28,863 bases of DNA. It comes from a virus. The translations under genes and the position numbers were made by a program. This document shows positions 25,735 through 28,771 of the stretch, piece after piece. The stretch covers positions 1 through 28,863 of IMG/VR virus record IMGVR_UViG_3300006076_000019. The stretch is one strand, 5' to 3'. Every line of letters starts with the position of its first letter. The first letter of the stretch is position 1. The notes under the pieces were generated by a model. That model had not been told where the DNA came from. It did not search any database and saw nothing but the letters and a program-made list of their open reading frames with translations.

Positions 25735-28332
25735 ATGGCGAACGTATTCGTTTCCAACGGTAGCAACTACTTAGAATTTCCGACTCTTGGGGTTCTAACG
25801 GGGAAGAAAGTAGAGATAAGGTTAAAAAACACCTCATGGTCTGGCGGCTACTTGTGGTCACAAGCAAGCTCTGGCAGTTCAACGCGAGAACTTGGGTCTT
25901 ACTACATGGGCACCTCTGTTAATATCGTTAGTGGAGGCTACACCAACGATATAGGGCAGATAAACACAGTTTTTGGTAAAGATTCTCTAGCTGAAGATGA
26001 AGTCTATTTCTCCATAGGTACAGGCGGCGCGGTTGCAGTAGAAACAAATGGCATAGAAACTAGAAATACCAGCATAACAAGAGGCACAAACCGAGTAGAT
26101 GGTGAGCCTTTCCGCATATTTGCTAGAGGTGGCGGTTACAATGCCGCTGCTGGTGATGAAGTGGGAGACTTTGAAGTTTGGATTGATGGTGTAAAAGTCC
26201 GTGATGTCGTTATGCCATCCGATAACACAGGCGATATAGTAGATCTGCTAGACAGTGCTAACAACGGTACGCTAGTTGGTGGTGATGGTGATGATTTCAG
26301 AGTAGTAAGCGCGGAGCCTCCTGCAGTGGCCCCAACAGACCCAGCAGTTTTACCAACAGAAACGCCAACAAAGCTTGTTCTATTAGGTGCAAGTATTCAA
26401 GAGTGGTCAACCAACTATAACGTTGGTGATTTCACGGATTACATTCAAAAAGTGTACGGCGCTAACGTGCAGGTTATCGAAAGAGCGACAGGCGGTGATA
26501 AGGTTGCTCAGGTGTTAGAGGATTTGCCAGCCATATTGGATGAGTTTGACGGCGATACAGGTGTTCGTTATGGCTTGCATGTTTTGGGTAATGACATAGA
26601 AAGGCCGTCTAACACCTACTCATTGCCGTTTTCAAGTTTAGACCCAGCAGTCCAAGCGCAAAAAACAGCTGATTTAGAGTCTATCTATGACCTTATTCAT
26701 GCAAGAGGTCAGCACGTATTCCAATCATCCATATCGCACAGAAACTACAACAACGAAAGATTTGACCCTAGCAGCGAGATAACTTCAGAGGTTAACGGAA
26801 GTTACAGCTATAACACTGATTGCGCTATCCCAGTGATGGCAAATAAAGCGCCGTACTCAGTTTATGATAGGGATGGTCAAGCGTGGCCTTATATTGACGG
26901 TTATAACATGAGCCGTAACTTTATAGGCGCATGGGCTGATGCTTCTAGCGATGTTGTGCATCCTAGCAGGGTTGCCAGATGGGTTTGGTTAACCCTTATG
27001 ATAGACGGGCTGATGAAACTTGGCAGCGGAACAACTTTAGCACCAGTACCACGGAGAGACTTTACCGCCCCAGTCGAGAAAGGCTCTAATATTGATGTTG
27101 TTATCGACTTCAAACCTGATGCAAATGCAGCAAACCAGACAAACCCTAATATCAACGTAGTGACGCCAACGAATAACTACGTGCAAAACTTAACGCAGTC
27201 AGATGGTAGCGCTTCAACTTTAAGTGTATATGTTACCGCGCTATCAGGAGAAACGCTTGGCTCTGGTGTAGGTTCGACAGATGCAGAGATAGGTAATGCT
27301 GAAATCCACAGGGATGGTGTTATTCATGTTGAGTCCAACAGATTTGTAACTGCAATTGTAAGCGGATTAGAAGCGTTTAAAGAGTATGAAGTTACAACCG
27401 TGGCAGATACTAGCGCGGATCACCCGCAAAAAGTATACATTCACGATGTAGACGACTATTCAACGGTTGCGATAGATGCGGTAACAGAAACTACCAAGAC
27501 TCAGAATGTTGTTTCTGACTCATTGGGGCGAATATTTGTAACTCATGCAGAATCAGCCAGTGGTAACAAATCAGTTTTAAACGGAATGCAGATAAAGTCT
27601 CAATCGACGGCTGCTAACCAACCACCAATCGCCAACGCTGGCCCCGACCAATCAGTAGCAGCTGGTGTTCGGGTTCAACTTAATGCATCAATGAGTACTG
27701 ACCCCGAAGACGGCTCAATTTCTCAATTTGGTTGGGAGCAAGTGGATAACGGAGCAGATTCAGTAGTTCTTGAGTTTGCTAACACAGCTACCCCAGAGTT
27801 CACTGCGCCTAGTTCATTAACCGAGCAAACATTAGAGTTTCGAGTGCAGGCACAAGATAGCGAAGGCGCAACATCTACAGATACAGTCACCGTAACCGTT
27901 GCAGCATTAGAGGAAAATGCAATATTGAGTATAATGGAAACGTTAGATTTTGAGTTGGTAACTCAAGGAAACCTGATTGCTTTTAAGGGTCGTTCAAATC
28001 GTGAAGTTATGCGCCTCAAGCCAAGCTCTGATGTAGGAATAGTAACTGAAGATGGTTATTTGGATTTGAGTAAAAATGGTATCGCAAAGATCGAGATCAT
28101 AGCTAATGGCAAAAAAATCAGTAATAGCAATAGCGACTCAATAAAAATTGATGGTAACAGGATACTCGCGAGGTTAGGTGATTTAGATTTACCGACAGGC
28201 GGTAGAGATACCATCAATCCAACATTTATGATTGTTCTATATGTTGGTGATGATACGCGTGGGCTGGTGGTAGCTTCAAATGCAACTGCGGGATACAAAC
28301 CCCTAAGTTATAGGGTTGAGGACGCCGCGTAA
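25735..28332 (+). CDS. SGNH-hydrolase tail protein with PKD domain, 865 aa
   Basis: Domains in order: a lectin-like beta region (1-195), a Pro/Thr linker, an SGNH/GDSL hydrolase (about 213-435), a beta domain (about 440-620), a PKD/REJ-type domain (about 628-722, PPIANAGPDQSVAAGVRVQL) and a C-terminal domain (735-865) of unknown type. The catalytic set is present: Ser220 in LLGASIQ, a Gly in ATGGDKV, Asn286 in LGNDI, and Asp406 and His409 in DVVHPS. It most likely removes O-acetyl groups from a host surface polysaccharide during adsorption. The N-terminus carries no signal peptide, so it is a virion protein and not a secreted enzyme. A 77-base gap and an AAGAGGGTAGG site precede it. Confidence 0.85.
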   Translation: MANVFVSNGSNYLEFPTLGVLTGKKVEIRLKNTSWSGGYLWSQASSGSSTRELGSYYMGTSVNIVSGGYTNDIGQINTVFGKDSLAEDEVYFSIGTGGAVAVETNGIETRNTSITRGTNRVDGEPFRIFARGGGYNAAAGDEVGDFEVWIDGVKVRDVVMPSDNTGDIVDLLDSANNGTLVGGDGDDFRVVSAEPPAVAPTDPAVLPTETPTKLVLLGASIQEWSTNYNVGDFTDYIQKVYGANVQVIERATGGDKVAQVLEDLPAILDEFDGDTGVRYGLHVLGNDIERPSNTYSLPFSSLDPAVQAQKTADLESIYDLIHARGQHVFQSSISHRNYNNERFDPSSEITSEVNGSYSYNTDCAIPVMANKAPYSVYDRDGQAWPYIDGYNMSRNFIGAWADASSDVVHPSRVARWVWLTLMIDGLMKLGSGTTLAPVPRRDFTAPVEKGSNIDVVIDFKPDANAANQTNPNINVVTPTNNYVQNLTQSDGSASTLSVYVTALSGETLGSGVGSTDAEIGNAEIHRDGVIHVESNRFVTAIVSGLEAFKEYEVTTVADTSADHPQKVYIHDVDDYSTVAIDAVTETTKTQNVVSDSLGRIFVTHAESASGNKSVLNGMQIKSQSTAANQPPIANAGPDQSVAAGVRVQLNASMSTDPEDGSISQFGWEQVDNGADSVVLEFANTATPEFTAPSSLTEQTLEFRVQAQDSEGATSTDTVTVTVAALEENAILSIMETLDFELVTQGNLIAFKGRSNREVMRLKPSSDVGIVTEDGYLDLSKNGIAKIEIIANGKKISNSNSDSIKIDGNRILARLGDLDLPTGGRDTINPTFMIVLYVGDDTRGLVVASNATAGYKPLSYRVEDAA

Positions 28333-28364
28333 CGTGAAAGGGGCAAGGAAGCCCGAACCTCAGT

Positions 28365-28559
28365 CTAGTTCCACTCCCAAGTAAACCCACCTTTAATTAA
28401 GCATTCTTTTTGATAGTTGAGCGGTTCGTGTAATGCGAATGGAATATACTTGTCGCGAAAGAAGTGAGTAGCCGACCAAAAACCATTGGCTTTTACGTAG
28501 GTCACGGTTTGAATGTGAACCCCATCTTTATATATGAATAGCTTTCTTATTTTGCTCAT
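28365..28559 (-). CDS. small leftward protein under SOS-type control, 64 aa
   Basis: This is the only leftward gene. The product MSKIRKLFIYKDGVHIQTV is followed by an aromatic-rich part (NGFWSATHFFRDKYIPFAL) and ends KGGFTWEWN. I recognise no family, and it does not look like DinI. The region directly upstream of the ATG holds a LexA-type box with a -10 element inside, which is the main reason to call the gene real. There is no ribosome site, and the predicted leader is only about 9 bases, so the message would be nearly leaderless. Position next to attR is typical for conversion or induction genes (antirepressor, SOS-linked functions). The true start could differ. Confidence 0.55.
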   Translation of the reverse strand: MSKIRKLFIYKDGVHIQTVTYVKANGFWSATHFFRDKYIPFALHEPLNYQKECLIKGGFTWEWN

Positions 28560-28602
28560 GCTGTAAGGATATACAGTATAGAGAATTAAGCAATACGCCC
28601 AA
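28559..28602 (-). promoter_or_regulatory. LexA-type SOS box overlapping a leftward promoter
   Basis: On the plus strand CTGTAAGGATATACAG (28561-28576) fits the gammaproteobacterial LexA pattern CTGT-N8-ACAG, with TA following the second half. Read leftward, TACTGTATAT opens the box and matches the consensus arm fully; 16 of 20 positions of the extended consensus agree. The leftward -10 TATACT (28575-28580) overlaps the box, and a weak -35 TTGGGC lies at 28597-28602 (16-base spacer). LexA bound here would block RNA polymerase. Confidence 0.65.
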
Positions 28603-28651
28603 TATTATTTCCTAATAAGAATAGCCTCAAATACGGGGAATCAAGCACTTA

Positions 28652-28667
28652 AACAAACATATTTGTT
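28652..28667. repeat. palindrome near the attachment junction
   Basis: AACAAA (28652-28657) and TTTGTT (28662-28667) are perfect inverted repeats around CATA. It lies about 47 bases inside attR and could be an arm or excisionase site. No second copy was noticed. Confidence 0.35.
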
Positions 28668-28713
28668 AGGAACAATGCTGGTCTAGCCTATATGTTCACT
28701 GCCCTGTTCATAC

Positions 28714-28771
28714 GGATTTAAAATCCCTCGCTGGTAACAGCGTGCCGGTTCAAGTCCGGCCCCGGGCACCA
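28714..28771 (+). other. attR: 3' fragment of tRNA-Leu(UAA)
   Basis: The 58 bases begin in the anticodon stem (GGA), then run through the loop TTTAAAA with anticodon TAA and the stem TCCCT. The long variable arm CGCTGGTAACAGCG, the T arm GCCGG-TTCAAGT-CCGGC and the acceptor strand CCCGGGCACCA follow. The upstream bases do not form the 5' half: no D arm or GCCCGGG acceptor strand is present. This is the displaced 3' part left by integration at a tRNA gene; the phage should carry a copy that restores the gene at attL, outside the window. The fragment itself cannot give a tRNA. Confidence 0.88.

Follow-up and report, generated by a model that had tools for sequence, protein, structure and literature searches.

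The window analysed here, the 28,863 bases of an IMG/VR virus record, comes from a marine, Alteromonas-type prophage and carries at one end, beside attR, a small leftward gene for a 64-aa protein. On balance, genome comparison leads us to read this gene, at the attR end of the prophage, as an accessory gene (moron) repressed by LexA. Because the gene travels among phages that differ in repressor and integrase, its protein probably targets the host cell and does not serve as the phage's own trigger of induction. The sequence-only reading had proposed LexA control together with a Tum-like antirepressor function or coupling of DNA damage to induction, or a host-takeover factor. LexA control of a real, probably near-leaderless gene beside attR is well supported by the comparison of relatives, in which the box is conserved. 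The antirepressor and induction-coupling part is not supported, as carriers occur both with and without an S24 repressor and the relatives G030 and G024 lack the gene; a host-takeover or host-directed accessory factor fits better.

The 64-aa gene and its surroundings

The ORF starts with an ATG at 28559 and runs leftward; no alternative ATG, GTG or TTG start was found upstream. It is the lone exception to the gene orientation of the window, as had been stated: every plausible other gene runs rightward, and the remaining leftward ORFs overlap longer rightward ones. The features of this region are the following.

25735-28332, plus strand: last late gene, 865 aa, PKD/Ig-like, bordering the cassette on its left
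28333-28604, minus strand: insertion-like SOS cassette (gene and promoter), absent from the relative G030
28365-28559, minus strand: gene of the 64-aa protein (MSKIRKLFIYKDGVHIQTVTYVKANGFWSATHFFRDKYIPFALHEPLNYQKECLIKGGFTWEWN), from the ORF listing, five homologues and dN/dS
28559-28578, minus strand: predicted LexA/SOS box TACTGTATATCCTTACAGCA, 20-bp frame, with the CTGT-N8-ACAG core at 28561-28576
28566-28578, minus strand: candidate -10 hexamers (sequence inspection), both overlapping the box
28609-28672, no strand assigned: probable integrase arm-type sites TTCCTAATAA (28609-28618) and TTGTTAGGAA (28663-28672), conserved in four relatives
28714-28771, plus strand: attR core, formed by the 3' half of a tRNA-Leu gene, with TAA in the anticodon loop and CACCA at its end

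Searches against Pfam, PHROGs, NCBIfam, PADLOC and PDB sequences returned no match to the 64-aa protein, in agreement with the earlier statement that it belongs to no recognised family. DinI (PF06183) is thus absent from its Pfam matches, and a scan of the window with the DinI model also found nothing. AlphaFold models of two family members (pLDDT 73 and 80) both consist of three strands, a helix and a last strand. Fold searches with the family gave no confident structural match (best E-value 0.09); recurrent matches to vasohibin were partial, with E-values of 0.24 and above, and were rejected as not significant. The charge of the protein varies among homologues, being basic in four (pI 9.4-9.9) and -1.1 in G003 and G004.

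Homologues and selection

The sequence-only reading had suggested looking for relatives of the protein beside integrases or attR sites. The search gave five homologues, three with 92-97% identity and two with 63%, with the reading frame kept in related prophages.

L002 in G001, IMG/VR contig: 97% identity
Alteromonas phage P24: 95% identity, feature missing from the deposited annotation
L003 in G002, IMG/VR contig, prophage: 92% identity
L008 in G003 and L009 in G004, IMG/VR contigs: 63% identity to the window protein

The G003 and G004 proteins form a 98% identical pair. Two scans of genome contigs, a plasmid search and broader patterns run across viral contigs yielded no further relative. 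The sample is small: six genes including that of the window, four of them close relatives. Among the close four, codon changes fall mainly at third positions. Pairs with dS above 0.3 show dN of 0.023-0.040 against dS of 0.34-0.65, and the closest pair dN of 0.013 against dS of 0.117 (dN/dS about 0.04-0.12 among close homologues). This comparison, through the conserved protein, box and spacing and the low dN/dS, establishes the ORF as a real gene under purifying selection.

In the P24 record (MK241539.2), no CDS is annotated across the segment 9940-11034 (about 1.1 kb), which contains attP and the 64-aa gene, and the series of P24 protein accessions jumps over AZU97336. A GntR-type HTH gene directly follows the SOS gene in P24 (11035-11259; L004 6392-6616) and is absent from the window.

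A LexA-type box abutting the start codon

The LexA box claimed from the letters alone, CTGTAAGGATATACAG at 28561-28576, is present and conserved in relatives. In its 20-bp frame (28578-28559, read leftward), TACTGTATATCCTTACAGCA agrees at 16 of 20 positions with TACTGTATATATATACAGTA, the E. coli consensus, from which we infer the motif of the host LexA. The CTGTN8ACAG pattern is the published gammaproteobacterial SOS box, applied to Shewanella piezotolerans, likewise a member of the Alteromonadales (PMC4471891). A search for UmuD on plasmids, meant to calibrate the Alteromonas LexA motif, gave no Alteromonas among the organisms or matches listed.

The box is the top-scoring site of the window; the runner-up (15/20) has three mismatches in its CTGT/ACAG arms, and a score of 16 was reached in none of 60 first-order simulated windows. 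The bare CTGTN8ACAG pattern, expected about 0.43 times per simulated window, is weak evidence when taken alone, and allowing one mismatch yields fewer such sites in the window than expected. Since the bare core is expected about 0.4 times per window, it is position and conservation, more than the match itself, that carry weight. The box ends one base before the ATG, and the CTGT-N8-ACAG-N-ATG spacing is identical in all six homologues. Each of the six genomes (268 kb in total) has just one intact CTGTN8ACAG site, and all six sites lie at the 64-aa gene. Chance alone would give about four in 268 kb (extrapolated from the simulation), so the count is unremarkable and the placement remarkable, though shared descent within the two clusters could partly account for the conservation. 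G002 (around 31963) and G004 (around 21520) have lower-scoring LexA-like sites (15/20, one arm mismatch) 85-95 bp upstream of putative non-S24 repressor genes.

Inspection of the sequence bears out the leftward -10 element said to overlap the box: TATACT at 28578-28573, which would give a short leader. In an alternative register, TATCCT, ending at about 28566, would place +1 on the A of the ATG. The diverged homologues in G003 and G004 have a perfect TATAAT in this second register, inside the box, with +1 again on the A of the ATG. A consensus promoter scanner called no leftward promoter at the box. A Shine-Dalgarno-like tetramer is found in none of the six homologues, against 138 of 268 longer ORFs. 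Given these -10 registers at the ATG and the lack of such a tetramer in six homologues, the mRNA is likely to be leaderless or nearly so.

The att site and the insertion of the cassette

The position beside attR is confirmed: 28714-28771 corresponds to the 3' half of a tRNA-Leu, as identified by tRNA-Leu matches in phage records, and the same stretch occurs at both ends of the prophage G002. Between att and the cassette, repeats of the TTGTTAGGAA type are probable integrase arm sites; such repeats (TTGTTAGGAAA) occur on both attP arms in G030. Other recombination genes were noted in these genomes. The window has a second tyrosine-recombinase gene (PF00589; 1679-2902) in its early/middle region, apart from the att-side integrases of the relatives and 91% conserved between P24 and G001. 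The DNA beyond attR in G001 (L002 1-2100) contains a fragmented transposase-like gene together with integrase/excisionase-like fragments, which suggests a decayed second element.

Window positions 28333-28604 (272 bp) are replaced by 21 bp in G030, the flanks of which match the window at 86% (28605-28771) and 77% (28260-28332). Around this empty site G030 has the same att and a last late gene that is 88% identical to that of the window and directly beside attP; its integrase shares 98% identity with the one in G002. G003 and G004, mosaic elsewhere, have in common only the gene and about 60 bp of upstream DNA; to both sides of this their sequences are unrelated. Only G030 and G024 were used as clear empty sites; the gene is also absent from the contigs of G009, G005, G012, G015 and G016, where a contig end near att may explain the absence.

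G001 and G003 encode a cleavable (S24) repressor, and no S24 domain was detected in P24, G002 and G004. Within each cluster the 64-aa protein is 92-98% identical across this divide. The relatives lacking the gene differ too: an S24 repressor is found in G030 and a 146-aa non-S24 repressor-like gene in G024, so all four combinations of presence and absence of the gene and of S24 are observed. The integrases beside the gene differ as well, with Arm_1 in P24, Arm_2 in G003 and Arm_3 in G004. In this small sample, the genome comparison shows no link between the presence of the gene and repressor or integrase type. The cassette has the attributes of a moron: it is an insertion with respect to relatives, it is dispensable, and it has a predicted promoter of its own.

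Similar promoter-start arrangements in other phages

A scan of IMG/VR for CTGTATAT-N4-ACAG-N-ATGA returned 72 stretches, many of which look like noise (very short ORFs, repeats). They include unrelated small-protein families with the same box-start design, at least one of them divergent from an SRAP gene, and unrelated proteins in other phages may use the same arrangement. In the SRAP-linked small genes (L016, L018, L032 and others), CTGTATAT-N4-ACAG-N-ATG abuts a short ORF as it does here; they differ in encoding unrelated 72-74-aa Cys-containing proteins. Members of this family (L016, L018, L032, L046, L054, L057, L060, L061 and L074; IMG/VR) start one base after a LexA-type box, and most end in ...YEREPGVD. 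The SRAP gene divergent from the small gene in L016 belongs to PF02586; L032 has a similar upstream ORF and an integrase-like ORF downstream. One representative of the family was searched against PHROGs, with no match. Two further small-protein groups (L020, L027 and L076; L038 and L040; IMG/VR) lie directly behind a LexA-type box.

Alternative readings

A LexA-controlled antirepressor of the GfoA, GftA, Tum or AntC type, inactivating the prophage repressor after DNA damage, is an unlikely but serious alternative. The GfoA, GfhA and GftA proteins of the Salmonella Gifsy prophages (Lemire et al. 2011, PMC3121763) share its logic and size class, being small, under direct LexA control (predicted here) and encoded outside the immunity region. 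P24, G002 and G004 lack an S24 repressor, the candidate repressors of G002 and G004 (155 and 158 aa) are in the range given by Lemire et al. for non-cleavable repressors (PMC3121763), and foreign repressors can be targets, as with FsoA and P22 Ant. Against this, G001 has the 97% identical protein together with an S24 repressor, the 98% identical pair is split between G003 (S24) and G004 (none), the candidate repressors of P24 and G002 have no detectable similarity, and G024 has its 146-aa repressor-like gene and no SOS gene. Known antirepressor families in Pfam, PHROGs and NCBIfam do not match the protein; this comparison was by family searches, and for GfoA, GftA and Tum by their published descriptions. 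The Gifsy antirepressors belong to a dinI-antirepressor-irsA operon downstream of the replication genes, with non-AUG starts and non-cleavable repressor partners (PMC3121763), whereas the 64-aa gene is a single gene at attP with an AUG start abutting the box, found with and without S24 repressors. In the account of PMC3121763, Tum of phage 186 and AntC of N15 are likewise LexA-controlled phage proteins, a control predicted for ours, but Tum has 146 aa with a DinI-like half, while the 64-aa protein has neither a DinI match nor linkage to a repressor. The Tum-like role put forward earlier, and more generally a dedicated, cognate antirepressor, was rejected since all four repressor/gene combinations exist, one of them in the empty site of G030. 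The protein could still be a broad-range antirepressor that acts on other prophages.

An excisionase or recombination directionality factor linking SOS to excision would suit a small gene that adjoins attP on the arm opposite int and is basic in four homologues, but we consider it highly improbable. The adjoining integrases differ in their arm-binding domains, G030 lacks the gene although its integrase and the G002 one are 98% identical, and the basic charge is lost in G003 and G004; on these three grounds the function was rejected. Other small genes also adjoin int (DUF4224 in G002, a weak sub-threshold match to DUF1233 in G001), and the predicted fold is not a winged helix. Just as improbable is a palindrome that serves a phage regulator as operator, or matches by chance, with the ORF expressed otherwise. 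The box is near-palindromic and close to attP, and LexA binding is a prediction; yet the same box stands beside different repressors, it matches the gammaproteobacterial LexA consensus, and the boxes at the gene are the only intact sites in six genomes, by which a chance palindrome was rejected. A defence, exclusion or toxin-like gene turned on in the damaged lysogen would agree with the moron position at the prophage end, the predicted promoter and the accessory, mobile nature of the gene. With no PADLOC match and no partner antitoxin gene in the cassette, we rate it as rather unlikely, a little below the antirepressor.

Proposed mechanism and significance

For the LexA-repressed accessory gene that we favour, the following course of events can be proposed. 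In the lysogen, host LexA would cover both the promoter and the start codon. DNA damage would take LexA off, and transcription of a leaderless or near-leaderless mRNA would start immediately without depending on the phage repressor, allowing expression even before, or without, full induction. That one protein persists next to differing repressors and integrases might mean that it acts on a conserved host target, most likely among the proteins of cell division, the SOS response or replication. The identity of this target is a guess, no fold match being better than an E-value of 0.09. With morons and lysogenic conversion genes at other prophage ends, the gene shares the form of an optional, autonomous cassette with its own promoter, here a predicted one, between the late genes and att. 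It differs from them in its apparent control by host LexA, through a box touching the start codon, and in belonging to no known protein family. Tentatively, and with considerable doubt, it might represent a new class of prophage-end cassette, combining LexA on a leaderless start codon, a damage response independent of immunity and a host-takeover protein of a new family, in a design that is maybe reused by unrelated proteins.

A test is practical, since the gene for this tiny, highly conserved protein without known family is carried by a named phage in culture, Alteromonas phage P24. Here a predicted damage-inducible phage gene tracks neither repressor nor integrase. If our reading is true, a temperate phage could answer the DNA damage of its host without its own lytic switch.
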